A stretch of 64,000 nucleotides of DNA, taken from contig NC_083509.1 of assembly GCF_032362555.1 (NCBI RefSeq), positions 5,107,001 through 5,171,000 on the forward strand, given 5' to 3'. This DNA comes from Amyelois transitella (taxonomy: Eukaryota; Arthropoda; Insecta; Lepidoptera; Pyralidae). Shown here in pieces: positions 2,453 through 42,182 of this stretch. The position numbers and the translations under genes were made by a program. The notes below the pieces were generated by a model. The model was not told where the DNA came from and searched no databases. It was given only the letters and a program-made list of their open reading frames with translations. Positions within the stretch are counted from its first letter, which is position 1. Each line of letters starts with the position of its first letter.

Positions 2453-3003
2453 TTTCAAAATGTTTTTCACTTATCACTTAAAAGTAAAACTATCACGTCT
2501 ATTTCATTATTTTAATTTTAATTGATATCAAACGTGTGACGCGGAAGATCTGCGATTTACAATTAGATTGCAAATGAAAAATTGGAATTGCTATCGGTTA
2601 TCAAAAACGTATCAACTATTAAGGAGCAATTATCGCCTGCGGCTTATGAGTTTGCTCCTTTTACATAAAAATTATTCATTAAACACTAGAAGTATTTTTT
2701 TTAATAAAGTGTACAGCGATTGCGTAAGTAATGTGCAATAAAAGCAAAATTGAATTTTGAAGTTCTTAAATAATTGTGTAATTCTAATTTATAGTATTAT
2801 TATCATTCTTGGTTTTAATCAAACATGAGGGAGGAGTCTATTAACAAACAAAGAATATGATTATCTAGATCTATCGTGATGTGGCAGATAAAGTACAGTT
2901 CTATTTTTCATTTTCATATCATGGAGTAAAAATAACGAAATCACTGATAATATAAATAATCTTTATTAAACAAAATACATCGTAACAAAAGAAGTGACCA
3001 TTG

Positions 3004-6000
3004 TTAGTCATTCATCAGTTTGCTCAGTACGTCTTTCAGCTCAAGCGTGTACTGGGATATTGGCAATGCCAGTTCTTGGTCAGAAGTGGAAGCAGTTTTG
3101 TCCCTCACGACATAGTCCGAAGGTACCACGAAAAGCTGCTTTTTATCCCCTGCCGCGTCTATAGACCGGAGGAAGGTTGGCATTGGCAAATGTGGCCGTT
3201 TCTTCAACCATGTGTAGAATGATTTGGTTGATCTGAAATAAATTATTATAGCTGCTGCTAATATGAAGACTTTAAATGTTTACCTGGATGTCGCGAAACT
3301 TTGGCATATTTGAGAGCAAAAAATACATAGAAGAACCGGGACTCAGCAAATATATAAAACTAAATTGTCGATTGACCTTCCGTCTTTGGGCGGTAAGCGT
3401 TTTGGAATGCACGTAAGTCATATATCAAATCCAAATTGTCTCTCGATTGGCTATGTTTTCGGGAGCTAAGTCAATAACTAGGAATAAATTTTAAAAAAGT
3501 ATATTCAAATTGACGGCCTCCGTGGCGCAGCGGTCGTCTGTGTCACAATTCAGTCCAGTGTCCAGGGTCTTGGATGTTTATCTATATAAGTATTTATTAT
3601 AAAATATAGTATCGTTGAGTTAGTTTTTCTTAACACAAGTCTCGAACTTACTTCGAGGCTAACTCAAACTGATTTTATTTTTTAAACTTTAACATACGTG
3701 AGATGCTGAATATCATCCCACACGGCGGCCATTGTGAGTAAATCGTCGGGAATCTTGACGCAATGCCACATGCTCTCAGTGTTGTTCCGTGGCGGGATAT
3801 GTTTCAATTTCTGTGGCAATGACGAGTTGAACGCCGTGGTGTGCGCCGGGCTTGTTTCAGCGTGGATATCGGACGCTATCTGCCGTTTCAGTACTCTTGG
3901 ACAAGATGCCTAAGAGTGAGAGATTACTTTTTAAAGTGTACACACCTTCAGATGCTCTAAACTACCTTACCTAAACATCTTTTAAGGGAAAGAGTACCCA
4001 GAAAAACTAATAAAGACAGCTTAGAAAAAACTAGAAAAAGTTAAGTTCAGAAGATATATATTTCTAATCTTACTTATTCTAGATGAGAAACAAACGCAAA
4101 CTTACCTTAGGAACACGGACGTAATTTGCAATACTTTGCAGCACACACGGCAGTATCTTTGGATCCAGCATCAAGCTACGAGATGCATGCTCATCAAACC
4201 ACACCTATTAATAAAAAAGTCTATAAGAATAAAGAAGCGCAGCTAATTAGTTTTGTCTTGAAAAATATATACAACTATATTTGATAAACTAGTGTTGATT
4301 GTAGTCTATGTGTTATTTTAATGTGTAAGCTATATTAGGTAGGTATGTATGTAAAGTATCATTCAAATCAGTCAGAAGTTTTTACGTGGAAGTATAACGA
4401 GCATACACAATTACACACGTACCAACATTCGTATTTAAAATGTAAGTGTGAAGTATGACGATACAAATTTATGAAACACATACCTGGAAAAGATCTTCAA
4501 TATCCTCTGGACGTTTGATTTCACTTTTGAACTCAACACTTCCAAGAGCTGTCCACCAATCGTAAAATTGTTTAGCAATCTGTAAAATGGAATGAAAATG
4601 AAGTATTTAAAAAACAATATACGTATACATACATACATACATACATAAAATCACGCCTCTTTCCCGGAGGGGTAGGCAGAGACTACCTCTTTCCACTTGC
4701 CACGATCTCTGCATACTTCTTTCGCTTCGTCCACATTCATAACTCTCTTCATACAAGCTCGGCGGTTTCGGGTACTTTTGACCTGACCCTTTACCAGGAC
4801 GTCCTTAATTTGATCAAGATACGTTCGTCTAGGTCTTCCCACTCCGACCTTTCCCTCCACACTCTCCTTGTATATCTGCTTAGTCAACCTGCTTTCATTC
4901 ATCCTCTCCACATGACCGAACCATCTTAACATACCCTTTTCTATTCCTGTAACTACATCTTCTTTCACATCACAACATTCCCTTATCACGCTGTTCCTTA
5001 TCCTGTCACTCAATTTCACACCCATCATACTCCTTAACGCTCTCATTTCCACTGCATTTATTCTGCTTTCATGCTTCTTTTGCCATACCCAACTTTCACT
5101 CCCATACATTAATGTCGGGACCAACACGCCCCTGTGCACAGCCAGTCGAGCCTTTTTGGATAGTTTCTGACTGCTCATAAAGGCATGCAAAGCTCCATTC
5201 ACCATGTTCCCCGCGTTCACTCTCCTTTCAATATCACTATCATACTTGCCATCTGATGTAAACTTTGATCCTAGATATACAAACTCTTTCACTTGCTCCA
5301 CTTTTTCTCCTCCAATCAAAATATTACATGCTGTCATTTCTTTCTCCATTTCAAAAACCAGTGTTTTAGTTTTACTTACGTTCACTTTCATTCCTTTCTC
5401 TTTTAAAGCTTCATGCATACAGTTTACCATCTCCTGTAACTCCTCCGCTGATGACGCCAGTATAACCTGATCGTCGGCATAGAGCAGACATTTGACGAGT
5501 AACTCATTCATCCTTAATCCACTTTTAGACTCTTTCAAATCTGTCAAACAGCTATCCATAAATAGGTTGAACAGCCACGGTGACGCAACACATCCTTGCC
5601 TAACGCCTTTCTCAATCTTAAACCACTCAGTGTGCGCTCCGTTTATCCTGACACAAGCACTCGAATCCTCATATAAGGATTTCAGTGCTCGTATTAAGAG
5701 ACTGCTCACCCCATGCATAGAAAGTGCTGACCACAATTCATTCCTCTCAACTCTGTCATAGGCCTTTTCCAGATCTACGAATGTGCAATAGACTTTTTGA
5801 CTCTTGGCCAAAAACTTTTCGGCTATGCACCGCAAGGAAAAGACCTGATCAGTACATCCCATTCCCTTTCGAAATCCCGCTTGAGCATCCCATATTTTGT
5901 CATCAGTTTCATTCCTGACTCTATTAATCAATACCTTAGCATACAATTTGCCGACGACGCTAAGCAGGCTTATACCACGATAATTTTTGCAGTCCAGCTG

Positions 6001-8540
6001 TGACCCTTTTCCTTTGTAAAGTGGCACGATAACAGCCTTACACCAATCTTTTGGTACTCGGCCGCTTCTCCAACACAAATTGAAAAGGCAGTACAACTGA
6101 CTAGCTACTACGCCTTTTCCTGCTTTAAGCATCTCGACCGACACTCTATCACACCCAGCAGCCTTTCCCGCTTTCATACTCTTAAGTGCTTCCACAATTT
6201 CGAACATTTCAATTTCGCCTTCCATCTCATTCTCTTTTTCTTCGCTATAGCAGAAATCTTTCTTATTTCCTTCCTTTTTTTCAAATAAACTTTCAAAATA
6301 GTCCTTCCATATCTTTAGTACACATTCTTCTCCTTTCACAACGCTACCATCCTGGCATCTGATCCTAGTCAGCTCTCTGGTTAAAGAGGATATACGTATA
6401 ACAACATCATAAGTATTTGTACTACTACTGTGATGTATGAACTTACATAAAAGTACTTTATATAAATAAAAATAAATGTAACCTACATATCTAATTGTCA
6501 AAAGATTTTCCCTTGTAAATCTCTATCCAACTTACTACCGGATGTCAAAAATTTCACAAAATTGATTAAAATTAAAACATGACTTACTTTTTTCGTCATA
6601 ATTTCTGCCTTCTTACTGAATTCATCTGATGCCGATATTTCGAAACCCTTTTGTTTGTATTTAGATTTCCATTTGATCATATCAGTTTCCGATTCATTGC
6701 AATAAAGCATTTCAAAATGGGGATTTTTGGAACTATATCTGCGTTTTTTGCTATCAGAACATTAACAAAGATTATTATGTATTTGCCAGTATTATGAAAT
6801 ATATGTACTTATCAACCAACTTTCAAAAATGAGATACTATATGTAAAGATGTAGTAGTCTCTGCCTACCCCTCTGGGAAAAAGGCGTGATTTTATGTACG
6901 AGGATGTATTGAGTGGTCAATCCGTTAACATATTTTCATAGTGAGATTTATTATTGATATATGCCTGACGTTATTCCTTATTCAATTAGCCAAAATTTGA
7001 TGATAGGTTCTCGGAAAAATTGAGGGAACCCTTAAAATTTTATAGGTATAGTGATTGAATTTGAATGATTTAATTTGAATTTGAAGCTATGCAGACATTT
7101 GCGTAAGATTGTAATATTATATGTGGAATGGAAAATCAAAAAATATCACGGCATTTTTTATATTTTATATAACTACTTTTCTAAGACAAAAGAAAGAATT
7201 TTCTACATGATTCTTTGTAGGAAAATAATCTAGAAATAATACTAGAAGTAAAAAATCCGATTCGTACCCATATATACTCGCCAGATGAACATCCATGTCA
7301 TCATGGGTCTCCGCCGGGGAGCCGGCGGTTGATGTCTCAGATTTATCAGTCCTCGTCTTATCAGTTTGAATAGACATTGCTCTCTGACAAAAACTTTTTG
7401 AAGATATCATCCTCGAAAAGTTCCTTGACATCGTTATAGTGGCTGCATGAGAAGCTTTGACAGTAAGAGATTTATGGGAAGATCTTTGTTTCATGCTTTC
7501 TGCTTGTGATACCTCGCTCCACAGGTCAGATTGTTCTTCTATTATTTCCTCTTCGGCAACTTCAACTTCTGATGGTTCAAAGTCACTCAGAGAGAAGTTG
7601 GGCCGGCTAGTAGGTCCTATTTGCTAAAAAGTGTGTTTTTTTTCAATTAACAATCTAAAAGAATGCAATTCTTATATAAATTTATGCGATTAGGTCATCC
7701 TATTCATACATCCAGTTGCCTGAATGTGCAAGGTTACTCGCGATATTTGTCCTCATCGTCAGAGCATTGGCTAGCACTAAAACTAATGTATATAACTCAG
7801 AAAAGAGTCATTAGTACATGACCGAGGTAGGATTTAAACTTGTGCTTCTTTGCGCATCACGCATTTAAATATGGCCAGTTAAACGCTTTGGCTGCCGACA
7901 CTGATTCGTTATTATATCATCGACTTGAAAAAGAAAAAAGTTTTCTTACCGAAGCAGTTTTGGCTATATAAAATTGGTCCGAGGCCAAGATAGAACCGCT
8001 CTCGGAAGGTGGCTCGTAGCGCGTGGACTCCGGAGGGAGGTCGAATATCTTCGCGATTCTAGTGAACAGCACCGGGCCCACGAGCTGTCGGACTGTCTCA
8101 CTTTGAGACTCCCAGAACTAAATAAGAAATTTATTAAGGAAATCTTCATATAGTGTCTCATAGCATCGCTCTTAACAATAAGGACGAAAAAGTGATGCAG
8201 TGGTCATATTATAGTCTCGAAACCCACACGGTGCAGTGATTTTACATAAAGATATTTTTTGCATTAATGATTGAATGTTTTACTGCATTTTAAAACATAT
8301 AAATGGCGAAATTAGCCTCGAGCTTTTTCTGTCAGTCAACCGAGCAAGCGATATAGGATATGGGAATGTGTAAAATATTCTGACCTTGTCATCTTTATAA
8401 GATAATTCCAACTCCCGAACCACATTTCTCCAATGCAACCTGACCGAGGGTTCATTCTGTTGATATCGAGAAGGCTTTATAGCACGCAAATTCTTTGGTT
8501 TATCCCAAGTTTTAATAAGAGGTCGCTTTCCACAAGGCAT
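3004..8540 (-). CDS. Gene B: 488-aa unnamed protein, tandem paralog of gene A
   Basis: Eight exons: 8385-8540, 7950-8117, 7268-7623, 6588-6738, 4484-4579, 4106-4204, 3698-3909, 3004-3232. All boundaries have GT and AG (the first donor, AAG|GTCAGA, is weak), all phases agree, and the joined frame ends in TAA at 3004. The start is ATG at 8540 (MPCGKRPLIK). Exon 3 encodes an acidic then serine/threonine-rich linker of about 120 residues absent from gene A. The rest aligns with A exon by exon: ESQ-containing exon 2, IAKQFYDWWT versus IANDFCEYMK, WFDEHASRSL versus EFDTHVARSL, and PPRNNTESMW versus APRNNTKALW. No signal peptide or membrane segment is seen. The family is not one I can name. A LINE and a SINE lie in its introns. 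Confidence 0.85.
3512..3672 (+). mobile_element. tRNA-derived SINE, copy 1 (internally deleted)
   Basis: Begins with GGCCTCCGTGGCGCAGCGG (A-box region) but has lost the B-box part. It keeps the 3' half with GTTGAGTTAG and CTAACTCAA inverted arms. It lies in the last intron of gene B. Confidence 0.65.
4628..6389 (-). mobile_element. 5'-truncated LINE with target-site duplication
   Basis: A non-LTR retrotransposon inserted in the intron between exons 4 and 5 of gene B, same strand as the gene. It is flanked by an 11-bp direct repeat, ATATACGTATA, at 4617-4627 and 6390-6400. The 3' end (left side) is a (GTAT)n tail directly after the ORF end. The 5' end is truncated inside the ORF, so the endonuclease part and 5' UTR are missing. 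The intact frame, clear duplication and clean tail suggest a recent insertion. By reverse transcriptase it is RTE-like or a neighbouring clade; the clade is not certain. Confidence 0.9.
4651..6389 (-). CDS. LINE reverse transcriptase, N-terminally truncated
   Basis: About 579 codons stay open from the truncation point to the stop. Reverse transcriptase motifs appear in order: NYRGISLLSVVGK finger region, motif A FVDLEKAYDRV (near 5750-5782), motif B QGCVASPWLFNLF, and catalytic YADD (5470-5481). The C-terminal part has the RWFGHVERM and VGRPRRTYLDQ signature common in RTE-like and related LINEs, and ends PSGKEA. No ATG of its own is expected, because the 5' end is lost; host sequence upstream only happens to be open. 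The enzyme would copy LINE RNA at the target site, but this copy lacks an endonuclease and is probably inactive on its own. Confidence 0.85.
6853..6901 (+). mobile_element. LINE 3'-tail relic
   Basis: GTAGTCTCTGCCTACCCCTC and GGCGTGATTTTATGTA match the last 40 or so bases of the LINE at 4.6-6.4 kb, in opposite orientation. It is an extremely 5'-truncated copy in an intron of gene B. Confidence 0.7.
7705..7905 (-). mobile_element. SINE family 2 (5' part), tRNA-like head
   Basis: On the minus strand this reads from a degraded tRNA-like head through AATGCTCTGACGATGAGG to CATTCAGGCAACTGGATG, as in the copies at 21.4-21.8 and 51.8-52.0 kb. It lies in an intron of gene B. Confidence 0.6.
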
Positions 8541-8859
8541 GTTTTATCAACTGGAATGTTCCGAAATACTTGATTATTGGTGAAAAGATATTTGGTTTCT
8601 TTTATTATAATTTTTGATTCTGAAAGCTTCCTTATTTCAATCAATGTCATCATCATAATGTCGTCATCGATGAAATTTTATTGTAAAGAAGAAGACGTTG
8701 TACTGAGAAATGTGGGCTCCTAAGTAGGTAGGTACCCACGTCAGGAACATCAAGTTATGCGCCTATTAATCTTTCTCTAAAATTATACTTTCATATTTTA
8801 TTTAACAGACTAATTGCTCTTTAGTCAGTTAAATAAGATATGAAAAAGGTCAGCGCAAA

Positions 8860-9420
8860 ATTCATATCGCGCCATCTATTTACAAATTTTGATACCCAGT
8901 AACATCGCAATAGCACACACTCCAAAAGAAACAACCTTCGGGAAACAGCCACAGAAAGCCTTCCTTTTTCATAAATGGTGACGCCATCTAACGAAATTTC
9001 CCGATACTTGCTTCTACCATGCGCAAAAGAGTTTCATTTCATCGCAATAAGATGCCGTTAGTTTTGTTATACTTGTAAATAATATTATCGTTCAAATTAT
9101 ACTAATACTATACATGCGAAAGTTAGTACATGCGAATGTTTGTTATCTTTTCACAGTTAATCTACTGAACCGATCTGCATAAAATTTTGCATATATTTGA
9201 TGTCTTACGGAGAAGGACAAAGGGTATTTTCAATGCGTGTGGCGCCGCGTATGAAAGTTACTGATATATAAAAATTGGTACTTATTGATATTTGCTTCAC
9301 AGGCTTCAAGGTTATTGAGTTTAAAAATTAATTAGTGGGTCGCTGTTACAGCGCCATCTAGTGAAAATTTTTTAAGTTTTGTATCCTACTTTCAGCGCAA
9401 TAAAACCTCCGTTAACGGTC
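8860..9420. repeat. Interspersed repeat cluster between genes A and B
   Basis: Contains several copies of the GCGCCATCTA-type motif (near 8869, 8979 and 9349) and a segment near 9105-9260 with TACATGCGAA, CTACTGAACCGATCTG and GAAGGACAAAGGG, a pattern common in lepidopteran dispersed repeats. No ORF. Family and boundaries are not determined. Confidence 0.45.
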
Positions 9421-9649
9421 AGATGTCGCTTATAGTATCACTTTTCAAATTTTTACCATCTATTATAAGTGAACAAATGCTTATAATATTTTCATAGTTG
9501 TTCCAATGACCCAGTAAAGCTGTACTTTGAATGAGGTCACACATTCAACGTTTAATAAGTTTACAAATTATTTATTAATTGTATGAGAGTAGTAGTAAGT
9601 ACTGATAAAGAGGTATAGCGATTATAACAGCATTATATAATTGTATGAG

Positions 9650-9890
9650 TTACTTTATTGCATTATCGTAAGAAAATACCCAGAATTTTACAACAAAAAA
9701 GATAATTTACCGCGGCGTTATCCCACTAGACAAAAAAATAAATTAATTACACCTAGCTATAAGCTGGTAATTTCAAAGTCTGGTCCATTAGCGATGACTA
9801 CAAGGATCTATAATGCTGTACCTGACTGCATAAGAAAAGAAGAAAATGTAAACTGATTCATTAAAAACTTAAAACTACCTACTTTTGACC
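9650..9890 (+). mobile_element. LINE relic, extreme C-terminus of a reverse transcriptase ORF
   Basis: The frame reads PRRYPTRQKNKLITPSYKLV, then ARIYN-like AMTTRIYNAVPDCI, a stop, then FIKNLKLPTF. This is the usual C-terminal pattern of Jockey-like LINE ORF2 proteins (a variable tail, an YN.LP turn and a FK-L-K helix). It is truncated and carries a stop, so it is a relic. Confidence 0.5.
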
Positions 9891-10164
9891 GATAAATGCT
9901 AATATACACTGGACGAGTTTTAAAACGATAAAAATATTGACATTTAAATTTGAATAATTTTTTTTATTATATATAATTTGAATTAGAGGAGAAGGTGGTA
10001 TTGTGCCCCCCTACTTTGTTTTTGAAGGTTTATAAAAAAAACAGGTACTTACCTAGAAACTGGAAACATATTTTATTGGACTCTTTGATCATTTGTTAAT
10101 GCATATTTTACTATGGCATAAATGAAACTAGGACCATATAATCAGAAATAATATTTATTCTTAA

Positions 10165-10620
10165 ATAATCAAATTTGGCATAATGAGATCAAGTGATGGT
10201 TATGACGGCAAAAATCACAAATATAAAAGTCGCCTTCTGGACCTGCATAGGCTGTATGAGCCCATAATTCGCAACTCTGACACTGTACCCATTGCTCACC
10301 AGGTCTGTTATTTGAATAGTCGATTTCGCAAAACACGCAGAGGACACATATCTGTATTTTCAGGAACTCTATTCAAATGTGCGTTTTCATCATCTGAATC
10401 GGTATTTACTGTTTCACTGTCAGATCTACTGCTGGAAGTAACATCTGTCTGGCGTCGACCAGCAGCTTGGCTAGTGTCTCGTGTACCGCGATCACGCCTG
10501 ACACCATCTCCGCGAGGACGTCCTCGTGTTGGAAATTGTTCGTTGTTCCTTCGAGGAAAAAAAAAATCGTGGGTCGGGGCCACGTTTTTTGTTTCTTCCT
10601 CGAAGAAGGAAATAAAACAC
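10165..10620 (-). pseudogene. Broken transposase C-terminus with PHD-like zinc finger
   Basis: The minus strand encodes a basic RGRPRGDGVRRDRG stretch and an acidic serine-rich linker (SSSRSDSETVNTDSDDE). After a one-base frame change near 10345 it encodes CVFCEIDYSNN, WVQCQSCELWAH and FYICDFC. The C-x2-C, C-x2-C, WxH and C-x2-C spacing is that of the zinc finger found at the C-terminus of many pogo-like DDE transposases; the usual Cys after WAH is Tyr here. The catalytic part is not visible nearby. GTGCCCCC near 10000 and GGGGGCATTAC near 10720 could be remnants of terminal repeats. Confidence 0.5.
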
Positions 10621-11093
10621 TTTGTCTAGACATCGGAAAGAGAAAACAAAAATAAGAAATAGATAAATTAGTCTTACATGTAATGTGACCCCCGGGACCA
10701 TAATACGACCAATTAAACGGGGGCATTACAAATATTGAGATAATCAAAATAAATATACCTAACATATTTATAAAATGCTTAACTTTCATAATTACCTTTG
10801 AAATCCCGCAGAAGATTGTTCAATGAATAAAACGACAGACACAAATTCGATATTTTTCAATTTTTACTCAATTAAAATCACTGCAGTTAAAAAGTTTTCT
10901 CACAAACGTGTTTCGACTAATTCTAATGACGTATAAACGGGGCGACATCTGACGGATTAGATGGGTGCTAAATATTGCTGTCACAACGAGGACTTAGAAC
11001 CACCGAAAATTTGCTAGGTGGCGTTATTAGAAAATATTAATATCAATGGCCTTTTCCTCTAATTAATTTAAATAAAGTGAAAGTATTATCCTG

Positions 11094-11158
11094 AGATCGT
11101 GGCAAGTGGAAAGATTTTCTGCCTACCCCTTCGGGAAAGAGCCAGGATTTCAGGTATG
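11094..11158 (+). mobile_element. LINE 3'-tail relic
   Basis: GATCGTGGCAAGTGGAAAGA and CTGCCTACCCCTTCGGGAAA match the GKWKE...YPSGKEA coding end of the 4.6-kb LINE, diverged, ending near GTATGTG. Confidence 0.65.
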
Positions 11159-11644
11159 TGTAGTATGCAGGTAAATTCCACAATTTGGTGGCAAATAGTG
11201 ATAATGGGATGTTAACTGTGTGTTTTGGATCGTATTTGAATTAATTTGCGTCATTAGGGAAGCTGGTCCTAGTTAACCCAACAACGCCCTTTCCAAAACA
11301 AATAGGATGCTAAGTCGGGCTGGGTAGGTTAGTTAGTTTTCAATTGAAATTGTTACGCTAATATATAAGTAATTTGTATTTTCCCAATCATAGTGAAGAA
11401 TATAAATAATATCTGATCGAAAAATTTACTTTGTATACCTTTAGGTGTCCCAAATTTTATATTCTCCACTGCCTATGTATGTATGTATTATCAAAAACAC
11501 TCGGTTTATATGGATTTGACGTAAGATAAAAGAGATACGAATTTGTTCGTGAAAGCAGAAAATAAAATTATGCTTATTTCGATTGAAACATATGTATTTT
11601 GTCAAGATTATTTTATTTATAAAACTAGCCATGAAAACAGATGG

Positions 11645-14600
11645 TCACTCGGCAATATGAGACAGACGTTTCCGTAGATCTTCCATGGGTGCCGTGGTCA
11701 TTGGAGACGGAACTGGCCGTGGTCGGGACCTATAATAAAAAACTAATTTAAATATCAATATGTTATTATTAACTAGTACCTATAATGGACAAAAGTGATC
11801 TATAAGATTTAGTTCACTTTTTAGTTTTCCGTTCTATTATAAAAAAATAACAAAACCTATTGTGTGGCGTTTTTTAAATACAAATATTTAAGAGGATATT
11901 CCTAGCGCTTTAGCCTCTCAGCGGGTTTAACTATTTTAACAGGATTATATACTTAGGGTTCTTCTTCAAGGCGATGGTCTCTATTTTAATCTCCATTCCA
12001 CCATAAGCCATACGGTATCACGTCGCCTTTCCACGCAAGGCACTGTCTACGCCGTAAGGGATAAAGATGTAATCATATACAGTTGAATATGTTTTCCACC
12101 TTTGCGAGTAGTCTTTTACTTACAGCAGAATCTAAATAACTGTAATAAATAAAAAACAAAGAACTACATCAATTTAGTTACCTTCCCGCTTCAAAAGTTA
12201 AACGTGCGTCTAACACTGCGGGGTCGAACATACCCAGGCTACTGAGATATGGAGCCCGCCGATGTTCAGGGTGCTCAATCATCCACCGGCAGTATTCCTT
12301 CACACTCCTGGTAAATACAAACTCTTTTTTTATTATATACCAAATTTATTGTTACAACCTATTTTCTCCATGCAAAGAAGCGTAAATTTTGTCGAAGACG
12401 CTTCGAGCAATACCTAGTGAGGATAGGAGTTATGAATGATGAAAAAGGTGCGATTTTATGTATGGTAATCTACAACAAAAAATTATCGTCTAATGAGATA
12501 AGCGATTACAATGCGATTAGACATATTGATTGCAATATAATCATCTACACATTATCGATGTATCGGGCACGCTGAATATCTTTTTTTTTTTTTTAACTTA
12601 AATTTTGTACATATATGAAAGAGATTCTAAAATATACCTAGCAATTTAAAAATCTTTAACATCGGCCTCTTTGAGCGAGGCTTGAGTCAGGCTAGATAAT
12701 ATGTGTAATATGACTAAAAAAATTATAATATTCAGAAGAAAAATTCCGAAAGCGGATCGTCCAAATCCCTAATCATATTGGTGGAGGGTGCAATTGGAAA
12801 CACGCATAAGTTTATGAATGAGAATATACTATAGAACATAAAAAATACTTGTTATTAATAATCATAGAAAAATAAAAATACTCTAGTGTGTAGCTTTAAT
12901 AAAGCCTATTGTTCTAAATTTGCTTTTAAAAATAAACCTAAAATATGAAATTCGAACCTCGGATGTCAACCTGTTAGGTTTACCGAAACTGTGTAGGTGT
13001 GTACACGGTTTCGGCATTAGTCTGATAGGTTCTGCTATTGATAGGTCCTTTTTGTTACAATTTCCGGAAATATTTTCGAAAATTATTTTACACGAGCATC
13101 GCATAATGTTTAAAGTTCGATATTGAAGAAACAGCAATGTGATAAAAGAATAAACATTTGAAAATACTTTTATAAGACAAAACTTTTTATATTTTTTTCG
13201 CACTCCAGTTTTTCATTGGATCGTGATATTTGGCATGCACATTGCCTTTGATACGGATATGCACACAGGAATTTTGTCCATACCACGTCAAAAAATAGTT
13301 TTCTTTTTTAACGCTCTGTTATTTTACAATTCACTTTTTTGTTTATGACAGCACACTCTCTTTAAAAACAAAATACTATCGTTATACGACCCGTTTGATT
13401 TGATGAGGCGATTTATATTTAAATACCTACTAGCATCTGCCTGGGACTTTGCACGTGTTTAAATTTTAGCTTATAATGTAATGTAACACACATTACATAA
13501 CAAACCTACAAACTTTATATTAAATAGTGCCCTTATACTAAATTTATCTTTAGTTTAAGTTCTATTTTTTTTCCTTGATGTACATACACATGTCACGTTT
13601 GTGATTTATATGAGGTAAACAAAGCCAATAGTCACAAGACTTGAAGACAACGTTAAGCTGTGTGTAAGATTACCATGGAGTTTGGTATGAACTATGGTTA
13701 AAACTATCAAACCGTTATAAGCTAACCTCAAATTAGTGATGCCATCCCAAACCGTTTTCAAAGTGACCAAGTCTTTGGGCACGTGTCGAGCTGATCTCCA
13801 CAAGGCCTTGGTGTTGTTCCTTGGGGCCCTCCACTGGTCTTGCCTGGGGAATGAGCGACTGAACGCCAAGTATATGTCTGGCTTCATCTCTTCCTTGATA
13901 TCCCGTGTAATTTCTCGCTCTAGTGCTGCATATTCAGACTTCTGGACAGTACAGATATATGTTAGTTTTCTTATGAAAATAAAATTACTACATATCTACT
14001 TATTTATTGATACTAAGGTTATTTTTATAAATATTACGAAATATATGATTGAAATTCCTGCTGAAGGTATGAAAATAATTTCTTTTATTCATCTGGAGTA
14101 TAAAGTATCAATTTTATACAAATATTTCTAACTACACACAAACCTCGGGATGTCCCGTCACGGTAGCAATTTTATCATCAACACAGGGCAATTCTTTAGT
14201 CACTACCTTCAAACTACGAGCAACGTGGGTATCAAACTCGATCTGAAACACAAACGGATCAAAAATAGATAGTCCTACTTATATTCCAATTTTATGTGTA
14301 TCGTAGTATCGATAACGGTTCTTTAAGATGGTAAAATGTTAATTAATGTCTCTGATGTTAGGAACCAAACGTACTTGAAAAAGCTCTTTGATAGCTTTTG
14401 GCATAAATAGCTGCGACTGCTGGTTGCCTCCCAACTGCTTCATATACTCACAAAAGTCATTTGCAATCTGAAATTGTGAAATTATCTATGTTAATTAAGA
14501 TTAAAAGTAAATTAATAACGAAATTAGTGCAGAAATATAAATATTACAATGATATAGCCAGCAGTCTAAAGTAAAGACTGACAGGCCTCGTTCATCTGTA

Positions 14601-16512
14601 TGGCCTAATAATAGATATGAGATTTAAATAGAGACAGGTTGCTAGTCCATCGCCTATAAAAAGAACCCCAAGTTAATGAGCCTATTCTCTTAATCGCCTT
14701 TTATGAAATCCATGGAAAAGAGATGGTTAAATAGTCGTGTTAACATACAATCAGACTAGCATTTATAATACTTATAGCCTCAATATGTACGTGTGGACTA
14801 GATAATATAGACTACACATAAATACACATATTTACCCGGTCGGTAAGGTCATCCGCCTTCCGAACCAAACTCTTCTCTTCTTCCTTTTCTGGTTGGAGAT
14901 AACGAGTGGCCCACGTGACTTGCTCACGTTCCGGCTTACTGAGAAACTCTTGATGAACATTCGGTTTAAATTTTTCACTTTCTTCATCACTGTAAGGTTA
15001 AAAGTCTTAAATAGAGAAATAGTGAGAATGTGTCTTTGTACCCGTTCGTGTTCGTAAGAAAGGTCAGTACATAGTTGAACATAGATCATTGCTATTGTGA
15101 GTAAACAACCATACTTATATTAAAAATGCGAAAGTGTTCCTGTCTGTCTGTCTTAACGCTTTCGGGGTTAAACAACATCAATCTTAAAACAAAAAGTGTT
15201 TTTTTTTTTTTTCAATTGAAATTGTCTTACCTAGGATACTCTACATCGGTATCAGAATCTAGTTCTCTATTAATATAGAGGCTTTTTCTAGACGAAAGCA
15301 ACGGCTCTTTTATTAGTCTTCGAATTTTATAATCTGTAACATGAATACGACTTTTATATAAACAAAAATAACATTTATACCAATAATCATCGTCGTCATC
15401 CTAGTGAAAGTTTCGTTTGCGTCTTGATCTTCTGGTGAGAAGCCCGAAGTGCACCTAAGACTAGTAAACTGATTGGGTAAGTCAGGTTTTTACACGAAGC
15501 GACTCCTTTTTGATCTCCGTAAACTTTACAGGGTAACCAAACCCATATTGGATCATAAATATACCAACGACAAAATGTAAATCAACAATTGTAAAATAGA
15601 ATACCAATTTTATGGGCAAAATTTTAAAAGTATGTAGTCAGTTTTTCACGTAACTCATAACAGCATATTACGAATAATGAAACAACAAAATGCAAGCCCC
15701 ATTAAGTTGATAAACATAACGTGAATTTTGGGTAAACTTTCATATCGTTTGTTTGTACGTCAGCAAACATTGAGAGCAAACTTTACCAAATGAAATAAAA
15801 TGTATAAATTCACGTGACGTCCTTAAACTAATAAGTAGAGAAAAATAATAATATGAAGATTGCACTTTTTATTTTATTATTTTTTTAAACTCTCGATAGA
15901 AAGGAAAAGGAAGTTATACTTTATGTTACTGTACTTTTATAAGTATTTAAAATCATACGTTTAACAACATATATAATAAGTATAATAATAAAGATTACCT
16001 TCAGTCTCCTTACTTTTTTCTTGATAAAGATCAACAGCAGGTATTTCTAATATATCACACACTCGTTCGTAAAGCTTTTTTGGCAAAACTTCAGCGAGTT
16101 TTTGGCTTTCCTTGACCTAGAGGTAGGAAATACATTAGGTTTTTATTTAGGTAATTTAAGAAGTTTAAAATGAAAAAAATAATAATAGAATAAATACATT
16201 CATATAATCACATCAATATAATTCAACTTTCAAGTCCTTTGTCGCCATTTACGACATCTATGACAAAGAGATGGAGCGGGTCTATTTTTTTTCCTAGTGG
16301 TGCCGGAAACCACACGGCACAAAAAAATTATGTTATTACCTACTAATAAAAGAATTGTAAGATCTTACTGTGGAAGGTTTACATTCGTCTAACTCGTTGA
16401 ACACTTCATTCCAATATTTCTTATTAGTGTGAATCGCCTCAGAAGCCTCATATTTAGAAGGTTTTATTTGTGGTATCTTGCGTGGTATCTTGGACTTTTT
16501 TTTGCTTGCCAT
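11645..16512 (-). CDS. Gene A: 378-aa unnamed protein, tandem paralog of gene B
   Basis: Nine exons: 16369-16512, 15999-16116, 15231-15333, 14836-14989, 14375-14467, 14144-14242, 13727-13941, 12182-12307, 11645-11729. All junctions are GT-AG with consistent phase; the sum is 379 codons including TGA. The start is the ATG opening MASKKKSKIP. The protein begins with a basic tail and continues with an ESQKLAEVLP helix region, an acidic linker (LDSDTDVEYP), a helical block (IANDFCEYMK), EFDTHVARSLKVV, APRNNTKALWRSARHVP and a C-terminal YCRWMIEHPEHRRAPYL block. No signal peptide or membrane span is seen. It resembles B over most of its length, with intron positions shared. Function is unknown. Confidence 0.87.
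11940..12085 (+). mobile_element. SINE family 1 (GTAT-tailed), diverged copy
   Basis: Recognisable blocks: TTAGGGTTCTTCTTCAAGGC, CCATAAGCCATACGG and GCCGTAAGGGATAAAGATG. The 5' third is missing. It lies in the last intron of gene A. Confidence 0.55.
14555..14745 (-). mobile_element. SINE family 1, diverged copy in gene A intron
   Basis: Blocks GCCAGCAGTCT, GAGACAGGTTGCTAG, CCATCGCCTATAAAAAGAA and TCGCCTTTTATGAAATCCAT match the family in reverse orientation. Confidence 0.6.
16228..16321 (-). mobile_element. SINE family 1, 5' portion only
   Basis: Reverse orientation. Ends with GGTGCCGGAAACCACACGGC, the family's 5' head; the 3' half is absent. Confidence 0.65.
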
Positions 16513-17264
16513 ATTTTGAGCGGAACACAAAAAATATAACCGTATAGATTAACATCGAGTTGGTCTGAACACTGGCAGGCCGCAGTTTGTACTTCACAAG
16601 TTCGAAACAAAGGGATTCAACCAAACGCTTCATAACATAGCCTTTATCAAGACTAGAGGTGACATTAAAACATCATTTCCAGGATGAAATGTTAAAAATG
16701 CAACATTAAGAAAAAATAATTTCGATGGCTAGTTAATTTCACTGAAAAAGTGTAGTCGAAATGATAAAAATCTTTAAAAATACAACACAGATAATAGGAA
16801 TTTGTTTTGGAACTTTGTAGGAAAAGCTATACCTTTAAGCCTTTAAATGACGCAATATAAAAGAGTTGAATGTTTAAATTCATAAACATAGCTATAGCAA
16901 TTATACCTACGACATAGTTATAGATATGCTATGTATTGGTTAGTGAAATCAGCAAAATTTCGATTTTTATAATTTTATACATTTAATTCGGGTTTGTTAT
17001 CTAAACTATGGTTCTATGTATCACGTCACCTATCTATGTTAGATATGACAATAATTACTGAAAGCGGATAAAATTTTGAGGTAAATTACTTACTGAACCT
17101 TATTAAAATTTCCTTTGCGGTCACTTTCAGTTTAAAATAATAAATACCGAAAACATTATTTCAATCTTCTTAATCGGTCATTTTGCATTTAATAAACAAG
17201 CCCATTTTTTAGTTTTTAATATAATTAAAATTTCAACTACGACACCATTATTTTCATTCACTTT

Positions 17265-17364
17265 AAAAAACAATAACTGAAACTAAGCAACATCATTCCT
17301 TATAATACTAACCTGTATTAGTATTATAAGGAATGATGTTGCTTAGTTTCAGTTATTGTTTTTT
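17265..17364. repeat. Perfect inverted repeat, 47-bp arms, 6-base loop
   Basis: Left arm 17265-17311 (starts AAAAAACAATAACTG) and right arm 17318-17364 (ends CAGTTATTGTTTTTT) are exact reverse complements around a CCTGTA loop. Such perfection means a young element or selection for structure. It could be a tiny palindromic transposable element, or a foldback formed during repair. Confidence 0.9.
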
Positions 17365-22600: not shown

Positions 22601-24574
22601 TTATAAACAAAAATCAAAACTTTCATCTGTAAATATTTTAAGAAGTCTGGGGTTCTCTTGCATTAATCTTCGCAATGAAATTTTACGTTTTGCTAATATT
22701 TCGTTTATAAATTTTTCAGAATTTTCCGTCGGTTTTTCATGCAGGAAATTTAAAGTATGACAAGTATCAATGTAACAGTTACATTTAATGTAATCGCTAA
22801 AATTTTCCTGGCTGGAATATTGGGTCTCAACATTATTATAAGGCTCAAATGTTTCTGCATATGGCACATCTTTAAAGACAATATCTTTTGCATTTAAAAG
22901 ATCAGGTGACGAACTAAATTTTTGTGGTTTTCCAAGAATTACCTTTAACCTTTTAAAGTTTTCTTCAGTGTAATTTAAGTATGAGTTTAAATACGGAAAG
23001 GAACTTTTTTGTATCCAGTCTGTACATTGTCGCGCTGGACAATTATCAAAACGTTTAATATCATCAAAAAGTATATGTTGAAAAGAAGGTTCACTAGTCA
23101 ATTGACTAAAATCACTAAATTCAGTCGTTGTTGTCGATTCACTAGATGTACTTGGTTGTGAAATTTGTGTAATTTCCTCGTGTTCAATATATGAGATCAA
23201 AGAATCATCAAGTGTTTTCGGTGCACATTTACATTTTTGTGAGTCTAAAACTGCTTTTATTTCTTCATACTTATGACATTTAGCATATAAATACTGTCGT
23301 CCGAGTCTAATGGTAGGTAAATCTACATGAGACGGTAGCGTCTCTCTACTGCCATATCTTGTTGGAATTGACTCCGCTGTATCACCCACAATTTCGAAGG
23401 GTTTCTTGCAAGGAAGATCTGGAGGCGCTTCTGGTTTTACGAAATTGAAAACATTTTCTTCTACTAATATAGAGGGTGCTTTGAAAGGTAACTTTTGTAA
23501 TTCGTTTAATTGCAAAACAACCATTTTTTCAAAATCAAGAAGGAAAGTTGTCTGTTCTGGCAATAACTTTAAACTGTAGCTTATAAATTTTAAAAACAAT
23601 TGCAATACTTTTCTTATCTTTTCTTCCCAGTCTTTATTTATAGAACAAATTCGGACATCTTTCTTTTTATAATCGTCTATTATGCCTTGTTTTTCTTTTA
23701 TTCTTTTTATTTTATCAGCAATATCCAATGTTTGATAACTTTCTATCAAAAAATGATTAATTTTGCATTTTTTTCTTTCTGCACACATAACATACATAGT
23801 ACCTGTAATACTCTCTGCATCAGCTTGTGTTACAAAAGCTTGTAAAGCATCATTACTTTCTTGCAAAGCTTGGTTGTACAACTGATGATTTCTATACATT
23901 TCATTTTTTAGAAGCATTTGATAATATGCCTTAATCTTCCCAATTTCATTATCAAACCTTTTTTTCAAAATATCGTTTAGAATGTCTTTTTCCTTCTTTA
24001 ATTTCGTTATTATTTTGGGATTTAAATCACTAATTACATTCGAATGGGCACTTACTAATACTTTTTTTATTTCAGATCTCAAATGGTTTTCTAAATCTTG
24101 GAGAGAACTTTCATAATATTTTAAACATTCTTCCTTCATAATTTTACTTTTTTCAGAAAATATTTTGTCATAAAGTTTTTTTACCCTGCCTCCAATTTTT
24201 TTCTTTTCGTAATCCAAAATGAACTCCCATGCCGCATTATTTTCATTTACAAGTCTATTCACACGGGCAAGAAACTTTGCTTGTTCGATTTCTAGAACAT
24301 TATCTCCGATAGCAAGGATACCTTCATGTGTTATTCCTCTAGTAATTTTAGAAGTGAAAGGAGGCTGTAGTTCTAATATACCTATTAATAAATCACTAGG
24401 CGATTTCCACTCATCTACTACTATTTCTTTGTTACTAGGTATCTTATTTACCTCTGCCTTTAATTCAGTTACAATTTTTTTGAAATCACAGTAATCATCG
24501 TCAAAATACACATCAGCGTATGTACTTGTAACAGTATTTCCATTTTCAAGGGTATTAATTAAACCGTTTTCCAT
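22601..24574 (-). CDS. Intronless 657-aa coiled-coil protein, unidentified
   Basis: One uninterrupted frame. The ATG at 24574 (AAATATGGAAAACG context, MENGLINTLE) is preferred; the frame runs 14 codons further up only through a TTG. Residues about 97-250 and 295-325 are lysine/glutamate-rich and helical, with the look of coiled coils (KKKIGGRVKKLYDKIF, IITKLKKEKDILNDILKKRF). Residues about 480-510 are serine/threonine-rich (STSSESTTTTEFS). Cysteine pairs occur late (KCKCAPK, CNCYIDTC). No signal peptide or membrane segment. Codon use is AT-rich like the surroundings, but the frame is long and free of repeats, so a real gene is likely. Lack of introns next to multi-exon genes hints at retroposition or a terminal single-exon gene. 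Not recognised as a named family. Confidence 0.8.
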   Translation of the reverse strand: MENGLINTLENGNTVTSTYADVYFDDDYCDFKKIVTELKAEVNKIPSNKEIVVDEWKSPSDLLIGILELQPPFTSKITRGITHEGILAIGDNVLEIEQAKFLARVNRLVNENNAAWEFILDYEKKKIGGRVKKLYDKIFSEKSKIMKEECLKYYESSLQDLENHLRSEIKKVLVSAHSNVISDLNPKIITKLKKEKDILNDILKKRFDNEIGKIKAYYQMLLKNEMYRNHQLYNQALQESNDALQAFVTQADAESITGTMYVMCAERKKCKINHFLIESYQTLDIADKIKRIKEKQGIIDDYKKKDVRICSINKDWEEKIRKVLQLFLKFISYSLKLLPEQTTFLLDFEKMVVLQLNELQKLPFKAPSILVEENVFNFVKPEAPPDLPCKKPFEIVGDTAESIPTRYGSRETLPSHVDLPTIRLGRQYLYAKCHKYEEIKAVLDSQKCKCAPKTLDDSLISYIEHEEITQISQPSTSSESTTTTEFSDFSQLTSEPSFQHILFDDIKRFDNCPARQCTDWIQKSSFPYLNSYLNYTEENFKRLKVILGKPQKFSSSPDLLNAKDIVFKDVPYAETFEPYNNVETQYSSQENFSDYIKCNCYIDTCHTLNFLHEKPTENSEKFINEILAKRKISLRRLMQENPRLLKIFTDESFDFCL

Positions 24575-27245
24575 ATTTATATAAATTATTATTAAACTTT
24601 TCAATAAAAATATCAATTACAATGTCAAAATGACGCTCCATGCAAATTGTTCAAATTTTCCATGCTTAGGTGTTGAAATATGACTAAAGAGTATTTTTAT
24701 ATTATTTTGATAGTTTTATACTTTAAATCTGTGGTTTTGTAATACATTTTGGGAATATCTAAAGGAAAAGAAGTATAAAATTATCAGGGTTCTAGTACAC
24801 TTTAGAAGAAAAACAGTGATGTTGCAAAAGGTCATGTAGTTGTTTTGTATAACGTCGCTTTCCCCGAGCCAGACCGGGCCGACCCTATGCAGGAGCAACG
24901 GGGCCGTCAGGAGATCTCGTGCAAGATCAATGCCTAATGATGATGATAACTATGATGTCTCTTACATAGGAGATATTTCGGACACAATAGTGAAGTTTGA
25001 AATGCATCAAGCAACAATATAAATAAATCATTGCTTCATCGATTTTTACGACTAAAATCACAGCTCCTAAATCACAAAATTTAATTAAAGAATTATTTTA
25101 TCATTACAAAATAACATTTAAGTATTCAAACGGGCGAACGTGTCGACGGCCTACCTGTGTGATTAGCAGCGGTGATGTAAAGCGGCGAGGAGCCCCGCCG
25201 CTAGATTTAATTAAATACTTCCTTGCACCACCCACCTACTATTTCACCTCTTGTACCTACCCGCTCGCCTTATCACTTCCTACGCTAAAGCACGTAGTAA
25301 ATATTTTTCATACCAGCTAACAGTAAGATTTAACTCGCTGCGAGATACGAAATTTATTACCACACAAAATCGTTACAGCTTTAGTGGCAAAAACACTCGA
25401 TTCCTCAGTTGTGACTGCACCAAATACGAACACGTGATAATAAATTGCAGACATATCTCGACTCCATTCTCATTACGGATGCGGCAATGTCCGACGGAGT
25501 TTTGTCATAACTCAGTCTCGGTTGAAATTATTTCCGTTGGGTCTGATGAGAAAACTAGAGGTGGAGAACTGGAAATGTAAGTATTCGCGCAACAAGCCGT
25601 GGAATAACGACGGGACATATTTCATTCTTAACGAAGTTAAATTTCCGGGTAGGTCCTGTAAGAGCGTGCGTAACGCTGATAAAAGGCTACCCGCCACAAT
25701 ACCGATTTTGTACTCGACAGTTTAAGAGCCATCAAATAAATAGATATACCTAATTGAAATTATTATGTAAATATGATAAAACTGTTTAATAGGTTTTAAA
25801 AAATTTTAAAGTGAGGTTTAATGTTAGTTATTTAAGCTGAAGATAATTAAAAAAAAATTAGATATTGAATAGGTATCCTTGATCTCGGAATTATTTGTTT
25901 ATGTTTTAAATATCATGTTTTTCAATATTTCAACGGAGAACTAAAAAGTAAAAACTGAAGTTGGCAGTTTGACGTGCCAACAATAAAACAACAAACATAA
26001 TTCAGAAACTGGCAATAAGTTGGATTGTTTTCTACACATCATATCAGGAAATAAATCTTTCGGCCGCTTATCTGACGTCAAACTTAATTCCCATGCATAA
26101 TTCATCGCGTCGATGCCGTGTGAAGAGGAAAACTTTCTTGACTCGCTACAACAACCGTCTACCACCTGACATGTCTTATAGTTGAAGAGACAGAGGCCTT
26201 TATCAAAATTTTTAGATGATGCTTAAAGAATATTAAAATAACTTGTATTGGAATCATCTTAGATTTTACGTAATAATTTCATATTGCACATATTGCAAGC
26301 TTAGTTACGTTGTATAAAATCTTTTCATCATTGCTAAAATGTGTTAACATAAAAATGTGATCAAAATAAAGAACTCTCGTATTACGTACACAAAACCAAT
26401 GCAGCGGTGAGGGTGCGTCGGTAACGGCGTCTAGTTTAATATTTCATACCTATCCAAAACAAGTTGGCAGAGTCAGCACGCGCTAAATAGTGTGCTCTTA
26501 GATATGGTATTAGACACGAAGAAGCCAGCTAAATAAGACGTATTAACCTTTAAAAAAAACCGATTTGTACTTTAAACTGACATGTATGAGCTCAAAAACT
26601 ACTACTGTACCGAAACTAATAACATTTTTAACACAGCAAGACCTTCATGGAAAACATAGGTTTTATTTTATTCAGAGTAATTTCCATAGAAGTCGGTATA
26701 ATATAATGATATTGGCTCTCGTTATAATAAGCAATGACCCCATGACTCTCTGACAGATTGCATATCGCTTCCAGTCCGATACGACTTCATCAACCGGAGA
26801 GCGGGACAGGAGATTGACGCTGAATCAATCTATATGAAGTACTGGTGCGACTTGCCATCGGCAAACGAATAAATTCTTTATCAATCTTTATCACTCGATT
26901 TTCACAGTATATTGTGTCAGTGTTACAAATTTTTATGAAACGATATTTAATAATAAAATAATATGATCTACTTGCTGAAATAATTTAATAGATTTAATTC
27001 TTTCGCGGGGACTAGGCAGGGAATACTTACATATTAATACCTGCTATGATTTTTGTATACCTCATCCATATACCTCTTTCGTTTCATAGACATTCATTAC
27101 ATGAAGTTACATGCAAGCTTCTCAACTTTACACAGATTTTAAACTGTACCATAATAGCAACAAGAGGGCGAGATGACAATTACTTTTTTACGACTTCGGT
27201 AGACGAAAAAAACTGGAATTAACTTAGGACAAACTTTAATGTTAT

Positions 27246-38402: not shown

Positions 38403-41400
38403 TCATCGGCAGATAAGACTCTCTTCCCTCGCTGCGCACGCACCGTGTGGGGGCGCTAGAAACAGTTTGCCATTTGCACACGCGCACAATTGGTAGATAT
38501 TTTGATGGTGCGGGTCATGCGAATGGGGGGCTGAAGGAGGCAAAGGCAATGCTGATTTCAGCTTGGGCATGTATATGCTAGGGGCATCCAAGCGTATCTG
38601 AAAACATACATCATTATACAATTAACAGTTCAATATAAAATCATGTGTAATTTGTTGGCAGGTTAATTTGATACTCACCGAACCGGCGATGGATCGCAGA
38701 CGGAAGGTGGTGAGGCAACTTGCGCTGATGTCACCGGCTCGTGACTCCAACGCGATATTTTGAGCTGCATGCATCTCCAGCGATCGGGTTGGAGACTCCA
38801 AGCTGTTTTAAGCAAACAATTATACTCGTATTGTGTACAAAATGTATAATTACCGGAATGTATTAATAATCAACGGTGTAAAGTTGAAATGGGTTGAAAA
38901 ATCGATTTCTATATTGGTATTAGTCGTCTTTATGATTTGACCACCGTTAATTATTACGATTATTGCTCACTTTTTTATTATTTACAGTACTTTACAGGCT
39001 TCGCTAGGTGCGCTTTGACAAGTGGCGTCTACGAAGCCGTGTGAAACATCACGTCCGCTAGACTAATGATAGTGGGTGTGTCAGCGCCCACCGTCACAGC
39101 ATCTTGACCCACACATTGAAGAAGAGACCCTCTAGCGTCCTATACCTATAATATTACTTACACCAATGGTTTCGCTGGGGGCGCTTTAACAAGCGGCGTT
39201 TGCGCAGCCGTGTGTAACGTGACGCCCGCTGGACTAATGACAGTGAGTGTGTCCGCACCCACCGTTACAGCATCCTGACCCGCGCCCAGAATAAGGGCCC
39301 CTCTTGCATCCCGGACTTCGAGTCTCCCTGCGTTCACTTCTAAGCGATCGTGCCCTTTAAGTAAAGAAGTCATTTTATAAAAAAAAATTCATTAATAAAT
39401 GCCTACTTGAGGTTTAACTTTTTAACTTGTTTTTTCTGACACGAAAGACTTAGAAAAGAAAACACTATAGTATATCTGTTAACTTCATTCTACCTCCCAT
39501 TTTTTTTTCATTTATTATTGTATAAAGGATCTTACAAAACATTGAGTAGGTATTAACTTAGCATAGCGAAACCACCAAGGTTTGACATTACACTAAGAAT
39601 TAAGTTTACGTCAATCAATCATATTGTAATACATAGAAGAAGAAAAATAACCAAGAATTGGACAAATACATATGTTTTTTTATTATTTGGTCTCTTATTA
39701 ATTATGGTTATGACAATATACGTTTTAAAGGGAACTAAGGAAATGCTCTTTAAGTTTATATTTTATATTTTTTTTTTCGTCAATTTATCACGTAATTCCA
39801 CAGGTAGTTTATTAATGAGTCGAGTAACAATATAATCAGTCGTTCGCCTACCATATTCATTGTTTACGCGAACCGGTTTGCTACTCAGTTGATGTCTAGC
39901 TATGTAATCGGGTGTATACAGAGTGTTCTGGTTGTGGTCGATTATTGGTTAAAAAGAACAGTTTTTTATAAAACATTTTTTACCCGAAACCGCCGAGCTT
40001 GCATGAAGAGAGTTATAAATGTGGATGAAGCGAAGGAAGTATGCAGTGATCGTGGCAAGTGGAAAGAGGTAGTCTCTGCCTACCCCTCCGGGAAAGAGGC
40101 GTGATTTTATGTATGTATGTATGTATGGACGGGCAATACTTTACAGTGTTTAAAAAGGCCAGAGTGGTCGTCACTAGGTATATTGATATCTAACTTTATT
40201 TGATACTATATTTTTTAATATTCTTAGTTGAAGATCATAAATTGTATTTAAATAAGTTTTATATGTACGCCCGTAACTACATAAACCATATTGAATATAA
40301 GATTCAGCTAGCGAATAATATAGCATTTATTTTACTTTAAATGAGATCCTATTTTTAATATTATGATATTTGGCAAAAATTGTCGTAACCTATTACAATT
40401 AATTAATAGTACCTTTATTACAAAGATGTTCTAAAGTAACATAACCTATGTTGCTGCTATCATAAAGCATACCTAATAGATCATAAAAGGCATGAGCAAC
40501 ACTGCAGTGAACACAATGCTAGATTTCAGTACGATATGTAACGCCTCGTGTACGCATAAGCCTCAGATTTATTCATGTGTTCGCTCGGATCACGCTAACG
40601 TTAGTTCGATGTCTTTGAAAATCATACATGTGTATTCTGTTCTAGGGTACATTATGCTATTAATTTTTAGGTCCTATTTATGTAACTATCATTTAAACAT
40701 CTAGCTTCTAAAAATTGTGCCTTATGCTATTCTTATCAGCGAAACCGTTAGAGTAGTTTCGACTTATAGATAGCGTTTGCAAGGGTTATGGCTTCTCGCT
40801 AAAATCTGACATTATGTATATAAAAGCAATTCATATTTTTAATTTCCACATAAAAACTATAGAATTAAAATTCACTTGCCTAAATACAGTCTACTTTGCA
40901 GCAATCCATGGACATCCCTCGTGGAAATGGTAAAATTACGGGACGACTCCACTGCTACGGGCTGTCCCCGACGAGACTTGATGCTTGACGTGAACAGCGA
41001 GTCCAGTACTAGAGCTTGTCCAAGCAGTTGCAGACCACCAGGCACGATGCGGAGCTGGCCCATGCCCTCCTATTGGAAAAAGAAAAACGACTTATTTAAA
41101 GAAGTCAGCGACGAGCACCAGATCCAGTGTAAAGTAGGCCAGCGGGCTTCATCTTGATGACTTACAGACCTGTAAGCGCGAATTTTCATAGATGGTACTT
41201 TCGCTAATACTTTCAAAGTTAACATTGGATTTTCATAAAATCCTTCCAAAGTAAACAGAAGAAAACGTCTTAACCTCATTAAAGATTATCCGGGCCATCA
41301 TATTTATTTGCTTGCAACGTGGCAACCACAAAGCAATCTACAGCCACACCAATATTTTTTTACTAAGAGTTGTATTTTTCACTATCTATTCTTAAAGTGA

Positions 41401-42057
41401 ATGTAAGTAAACATGAAATTCATTCAAAGCTGCAAGAGAGCAGTTGTCGCTCACAACAGAACGCCTGAGGACACCGCTCACTCTCACAGAGCTTGTTGCA
41501 TTTTGTGTGTCGCGTGAACACAGATTCGCTTACTCATAATTATGTACATTTAACATTGGATAAACAAAGTTAAATATGTTTCTGAGGTTAAATTAACCAT
41601 TATTGAAATTTAAGCCTTCCATCTTGTTAATGTTAACTGTTTATGTGCCTTTAAAAGGTAAGGAGAACAAGTCTTCTATTACTGTAAAAAATTTAGTGCT
41701 TTGTATGTATACTTATTGTCTATCCCCCTTGACGTATGTCACATCTTTAATCTTTACAAGATAACAATATTCGGAGGCCACGCATGCTAAATGTCAAAAA
41801 ATGCCATAAAATAACCATAGCTTCAGTTACTTACTGAATTAAAATCCAAGACTTTCAGAACCCACAGCGTCAGTGCCAGATTAATGATCATCATAAACAT
41901 GAGCGCCATCACAAGAATGTAGAGACATTTTTTCCGCCAGCCGTAGATGCCAACTTTGAATTGGCTATTATAACTGTTCCTGATCGAGTCAGCCTTTGTG
42001 TCCCTCGCATTGTTGTTCAGGATTGGCTCGGGGGTGATCTTGTCGGCGTATGGTATT
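38403..42057 (-). CDS. Scgdelta: Delta/gamma-type sarcoglycan, missing 5' exon(s)
   Basis: Five exons: 41835-42057, 40880-41069, 39162-39354, 38679-38802, 38403-38597, giving 307 residues in frame to TGA. Sarcoglycans are type II membrane proteins of the dystrophin-glycoprotein complex in muscle, linking cytoskeleton to matrix. Visible family features in order: cytosolic [15 protein letters not shown], one membrane span ([20 protein letters not shown]), EGMGQLRI, the beta-rich extracellular part ([39 protein letters not shown]) and the C-terminal cysteine cluster ([20 protein letters not shown]). The first visible exon begins in phase and has no Met before the family's conserved part, so the ATG lies further upstream. 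The donor at 40880 is AG|GCAAGT, a GC-AG intron. Assignment as the insect delta/gamma/zeta ortholog is by motif. Confidence 0.93.
38998..39140 (-). pseudogene. Decayed partial duplicate of sarcoglycan exon
   Basis: The minus strand repeats most of the exon at 39162-39354 in the intron just after it, about 21 bases past its donor. [12 protein letters not shown] and [11 protein letters not shown] match [12 protein letters not shown] and [11 protein letters not shown]. The copy has an in-frame TAG (39029-39031), lacks the first part of the exon and its donor GTAAGT has become GTAAAG. It cannot be used as an alternative exon. Confidence 0.88.
39780..40345 (-). mobile_element. LINE relic (C-terminal RT ORF) in a sarcoglycan intron
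   Basis: The minus strand reads [20 protein letters not shown] and then [18 protein letters not shown]; past an inserted block it reads [23 protein letters not shown] and [15 protein letters not shown]. That order is typical of the C-terminal region of Jockey-like reverse transcriptases. It is interrupted by the plus-strand LINE tail at 39988-40127 and lacks the catalytic domain. Confidence 0.55.
39988..40127 (+). mobile_element. LINE 3' end, nested in an older LINE relic
   Basis: Encodes the same C-terminus as the 4.6-kb LINE ([33 protein letters not shown], stop) with two or three differences, then GGCGTGATTTTATGTATG and a (GTAT)n tail. A 5'-truncated copy of the same family, opposite in orientation to the sarcoglycan gene. 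Confidence 0.9.
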
Positions 42058-42182
42058 CTGCAAGGAATATTTATTTGAAACAATGCCGGTAAATCGAGCA
42101 AAAACTTTGTTTGTCATTTCCCTTTTCAATCTGTGGAAATGCGACATTTTCAATCCAACTATCTATTGGGAAAACAGAAAAA

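Follow-up and report, generated by a model that had tools for sequence, protein, structure and literature searches.

Tandem paralogous genes A and B, without a recognised domain, in a 64-kb stretch of the Amyelois transitella genome

Two adjacent genes on the minus strand of a stretch of DNA from the lepidopteran Amyelois transitella (assembly GCF_032362555.1, contig NC_083509.1, positions 5,107,001 to 5,171,000) raise the question of how a pair of multi-exon genes that resembles no named domain is to be interpreted: are the two copies of one gene, are both intact, and what type of protein might they encode? The whole of this stretch, 64,000 nt long and here termed the window, was analysed. 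A preliminary description of the window had proposed that A and B are tandem paralogs with shared intron positions.

Gene models and the homology of A and B

As rebuilt from GT/AG sites, gene A consists of nine exons (16512..11645, minus strand) encoding 378 residues and gene B of eight exons (8540..3004, minus strand) encoding 492 residues, the two being arranged head to tail on the same strand and separated by 3104 nt (Table 1). The ends given in the preliminary description were exact, as 16512 is the first base of the ATG of A and 3004 the last base of the stop codon of B. GT/AG dinucleotides are found at all junctions (8/8 in A, 7/7 in B), and the spliced reading of each gene contains one stop codon, which is terminal. 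Since the splice sites were picked by eye, some of them with the paralog in view, these signals and open frames do not prove the models independently, and an alternative donor lies close by for the first two exons of A and the third exon of B. An AATAAA follows each stop codon, 27 nt past it in A and 36 nt past it in B; as a background, such a signal occurs within the next 46 nt for 8.1% of the minus-strand positions of the window. Exons also have a higher GC content than introns in both genes (0.443 vs. 0.303 in A; 0.447 vs. 0.360 in B).

Table 1. Positions of the exons of genes A and B and of the repeat-derived frame within gene B. Shuffle counts give how many of 300 shuffles reached the score of the exon pair.
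Feature	Position in window	Strand	Evidence
Gene A exon 1 (ATG at 16512)	16369..16512	-	donor gtaagatc; A1-B1 0/300 shuffles
Gene A exon 2	15999..16116	-	A2-B2 0/300 shuffles
Gene A exon 3, 103 nt, unlike B exon 3	15231..15333	-	A3-B3 126/300 shuffles
Gene A exon 4	14836..14989	-	A4-B4 3/300 shuffles
Gene A exon 5 (IANDF block)	14375..14467	-	A5-B5 0/300 shuffles
Gene A exon 6 (EFDTHVARSL block)	14144..14242	-	A6-B6 0/300 shuffles
Gene A exon 7 (APRNNT and TVWDGI blocks)	13727..13941	-	A7-B7 0/300 shuffles
Gene A exon 8	12182..12307	-	A8-B8 3/300 shuffles
Gene A exon 9 with stop, without homology support	11645..11729	-	A9-B8 128/300 shuffles
Gene B exon 1 (ATG at 8540)	8385..8540	-	splice model and exon comparison
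Gene B exon 2	7950..8117	-	splice model and exon comparison
Gene B exon 3, 356 nt, Ser-rich, first half acidic	7268..7623	-	splice model and composition
Gene B exon 4	6588..6750	-	splice model and exon comparison
LINE reverse-transcriptase frame, not part of gene B	4651..6522	-	PF00078, E 1.6e-41; inside the 2008-nt intron 4 of B
Gene B exon 5 (IAKQF block)	4484..4579	-	splice model and exon comparison
Gene B exon 6 (WFDEHASRSL block)	4106..4204	-	splice model and exon comparison
Gene B exon 7 (PPRNNT and AVWDDI blocks)	3698..3909	-	splice model and exon comparison
Gene B exon 8 with stop	3004..3232	-	splice model and exon comparison; AATAAA 36 nt past stop

The homology of the two genes was therefore also assessed by a search of unspliced DNA, which was chosen because its result is independent of the splice models. 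The best match of the B protein to the unspliced A region scored 53.9 bits and lies at exon 7. Of 200 first-order random copies of this region, 107 were matched at all, with at most 23.5 bits. With the spliced proteins, BLASTP aligned A 131-333 with B 237-441 (68 of 206 columns identical, 33%; 115 bits, E 8e-33) and, in a separate N-terminal match, A 10-74 with B 15-80 (28% identity, E 7e-4), and the local alignment score of 302 compares with a maximum of 73 in 1000 shuffles. Local and exon-wise alignments were preferred to an ordinary global alignment of full-length A and B, which misplaced the N-terminus of A. Chance is excluded as an explanation for the homology as a whole, and the proposed tandem paralogy is strongly supported by the BLASTP match, the shuffles, the unspliced-DNA search and the shared introns described below. 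A tblastn search with A and B found no third copy in the 64-kb window.

The exon-by-exon comparison (72 pairs, 300 shuffles each) resolves this homology into its parts. Five pairs, those of exons 1, 2, 5, 6 and 7, had scores that no shuffle reached. The pairs A4-B4 and A8-B8 (3/300 each) are unconvincing alone because 72 comparisons were made and the off-diagonal pair A2-B7 was likewise reached in just 3/300 shuffles, and no likeness was seen between the two third exons or between A exon 9 and B exon 8. The sequence blocks named in the preliminary description are present, namely ESQ in exon 2 and the IANDF/IAKQF, EFDTHVARSL/WFDEHASRSL, APRNNT/PPRNNT and TVWDGI/AVWDDI pairs, with the correction that what had been written as a common "HA" is really H-V-A in A and H-A-S in B.

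Intron positions, exon 3 and neighboring features

Five of the seven introns of B match an intron of A in both aligned residue and phase, and a sixth matches in phase only, at a position one residue off. Introns 4 to 7 are identical in aligned residue and phase (0, 0, 0, 2), so that exons 5 to 8 are entered in these phases in both genes, just as had been described, and exon 4 is entered in phase 2 in both. Intron 1 lies at residue 48 of A and at residue 52 of B, which are paired in the N-terminal BLASTP alignment, with phase 0 in both genes, and intron 3 is of phase 2 in both, its two positions differing by a single residue when the proteins are aligned without constraints. For intron 2 the phases disagree (1 in A, 0 in B), and no intron of B corresponds to intron 8 of A.

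The long third exon of B had been regarded as an extra, acidic and serine-rich exon. It is serine-rich throughout (22 Ser, 19 Asp+Glu and 12 Lys+Arg in 118 residues), but its acidic character is found mainly in the first half (12 acidic vs. 5 basic residues, compared with 7 vs. 7 in the second), and it is not extra, since it fills the slot occupied in A by a short exon of unlike sequence. It is hence more properly described as replaced or expanded than as added, and an insertion, which was considered as its origin, was dropped.

Repeats are found in and around both genes. In addition to the reverse-transcriptase frame in Table 1, LINE-related fragments are located elsewhere in the window at 6854-6898, 11075-11167 and 39981-40127, and intron 7 of B contains a SINE-like copy. 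Two plus-strand segments, 58675-58746 and 59148-59219, were both called tRNA-His by ARAGORN, the first being just over the Rfam tRNA cut-off (29.6 vs. 29 bits), and both calls sit in repeats of SINE-like type, which have matches to one another and to 3559-3671 and 56736-56931. Between A and B, a PHD-finger-like stretch at 10172-10372 (minus strand; 22 bits vs. a cut-off of 24) is possibly, at a guess, a transposon remnant, and upstream of A there is a perfect inverted repeat at 17265-17364, with two 47-nt arms that are 100% complementary and 6 nt apart. A long single-exon frame of 658 residues at 22601-24577 (minus strand), which may resemble vertebrate C6orf163, had no Pfam match above cut-off and a best PDB match that is not credible (E 0.47). 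Exons of a sarcoglycan gene (PF04790) lie at 39161-42113 on the minus strand, with matches at 41824-42113 (E 1.3e-13), 40875-41069 (E 6e-11) and, below cut-off, 39161-39388 (E 1.5e-4).

Relatives, age and constraint

The preliminary description recognized no named domain in A or B, and this holds for Pfam, NCBIfam and the PDB sequences, a profile search included, none of which gave a credible match. No Pfam model reached its cut-off with either whole protein or with four sub-segments, and matches below cut-off to GlutR_dimer, Smac_DIABLO, DUF7175, HTS and TMEM120A-B were rejected. NCBIfam gave matches below cut-off only, and these for B: a phage tail spike model (TIGR01665; E 0.0002, but 20.7 bits vs. 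a cut-off of 26.75), which falls within the serine-rich exon 3, and ResRegPgtA (14 bits vs. a cut-off of 650), both of which were rejected. PDB sequences were matched neither by B nor by a profile of the C-terminal regions, and A matched only two homoserine O-succinyltransferase chains, which are dismissed below. In the viral contigs, no pattern matches were obtained with a stretch of 137 residues of B, and neither the 126 pattern matches of a two-sequence A/B profile nor the 19 of A exon 7 were confirmed. Among prokaryote genomes, none of 165 matches of the A/B profile was confirmed, and B exon 7 gave 52 matches, including one of 22 residues in Pontibacillus that was taken for chance, while four plasmid matches to the C-terminal region of B (E 4 to 7) are noise. 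As the contigs and genomes searched were viral and prokaryotic, the lack of relatives among them says little about novelty. A literature search with six motif strings from A and B found no related work, its sole match being an unrelated dengue paper.

An undescribed insect family, as had been suggested, is a possible reading of these sequences. It is also quite possible that A and B belong to a widely conserved family with an existing name or catalog entry, such as a vertebrate ciliary or sperm protein, of which they would be insect members that diverged fast, and that they seem nameless only because the libraries searched contain no model of it. The many intron positions common to two old, intron-rich copies suggest an old family, the domain libraries covered were Pfam, NCBIfam and PDB sequences next to the viral and prokaryotic contigs and genomes, and many eukaryotic proteins have no Pfam model. 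Against such an affiliation are the failure of any Pfam model to reach cut-off, with whole proteins or sub-segments, and the lack of a credible match among PDB sequences.

The duplication itself is old. When the A region (11001-17000) was compared with the B region (2901-9000) by blastn, three matches were obtained, none of which lies in an exon pair; two fall on LINE fragments and the third, of 22 bases, ends such a fragment. As only repeats were matched, a recent duplication was dropped. Across the 222 codons that could be aligned, pN and pS are 0.473 and 0.769, respectively, with pS saturated, and pN below pS fits constraint on the protein, which two sequences with saturated synonymous sites can indicate only weakly.

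That one copy, and A would be the likelier, is a decaying pseudogene is very improbable. A is the shorter copy, its exon 9 lacks homology support, and it is known here from sequence alone; but splicing of its nine exons leaves no internal stop codon and has GT/AG at every junction, even if the sites were picked by eye, its stop codon is followed by an AATAAA, and pN is well under pS, although that ratio reflects the whole history of both copies and not the recent past of A. We regard it as nearly certain that A and B are intact paralogous genes. Finally, a genuine homoserine O-succinyltransferase-like segment (PF04204) around a short GHPE-containing stretch of A, encoded by exons 6 and 7, is hardly credible: residues 225-287 align weakly with PDB 7cbe_A (E 0.0083) and 6mtg_A (E 0.11), and the Pfam HTS model matches A with E 0.0041, but its 16.6 bits are under the cut-off of 27, of 298 profile positions it covers only 226-281, a short terminal portion of the enzyme, the match is interrupted by an intron, and the GHPE motif is missing from the aligned segment of B, for which reasons the likeness is treated as chance.

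Possible nature and significance of the A and B proteins

The reading that we lean towards, if only slightly, is that A and B are apparently functional genes that arose by an old head-to-tail tandem duplication and that encode soluble, intracellular proteins of a binding or scaffold type. One ancestral gene gave rise to both, and the product of each copy would be conserved in a C-terminal region encoded by exons 4 to 8 and in a shorter N-terminal one encoded by exons 1 and 2. Exon 3 would be a linker free to change, which in B is long, serine-rich and probably unstructured, and this linker would set the copies apart. A membrane span is unlikely, because the highest 19-residue hydropathy is 0.71 in A and 1.01 in B, and both N-termini, as read from the sequence, start with basic stretches and have no signal-like hydrophobic run. 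The presence of conserved blocks over some 200 residues, together with the lack of a recognized catalytic motif, favors a soluble binding or scaffold protein, so that binding or scaffolding would be a likelier mode of action than catalysis. For a scaffold or adaptor function in particular, the chances may be about even.

Where such proteins might act can be considered in the light of what is reported for other Lepidoptera. A study of the monarch lists 140 sperm proteins (23.9% of the sperm proteome) without detectable homology in non-lepidopteran insects (PMC5712127), and, in two accounts of Lepidoptera-restricted families, new orthogroups are described as arising mostly (177 of 217) by duplication and strong divergence and as nearly all lacking functional annotation (PMC5712127, PMC11837612). 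A and B, known here from the genes of one species, are similar to the families so described in being unannotated and in their history of duplication and divergence, and might also prove similar in having no relatives outside Lepidoptera. A role in sperm or testis is the best single guess, a tentative one that comes from base rates and not from the A/B locus itself, and is rather doubtful.

Lepidopteran males form fertile eupyrene sperm and nucleus-free apyrene sperm. It is conceivable, but improbable, that A and B represent a domain confined to Lepidoptera, whose two copies, products of the old tandem duplication, are distinguished chiefly by the exchange of a linker exon and would now act at separate steps in the making of sperm, such as eupyrene versus apyrene.

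A and B look like a real but fairly ordinary unannotated gene family. What they add to annotation is a well-supported pair of gene models without a described domain, and they illustrate that such genes can be recovered from unannotated DNA when splice signals are combined with the comparison of paralogs. Were the family limited to one insect order and male-biased in expression, it would be one more case among the many sperm genes of this kind to which no function is assigned; otherwise, its description would be a matter of routine annotation.
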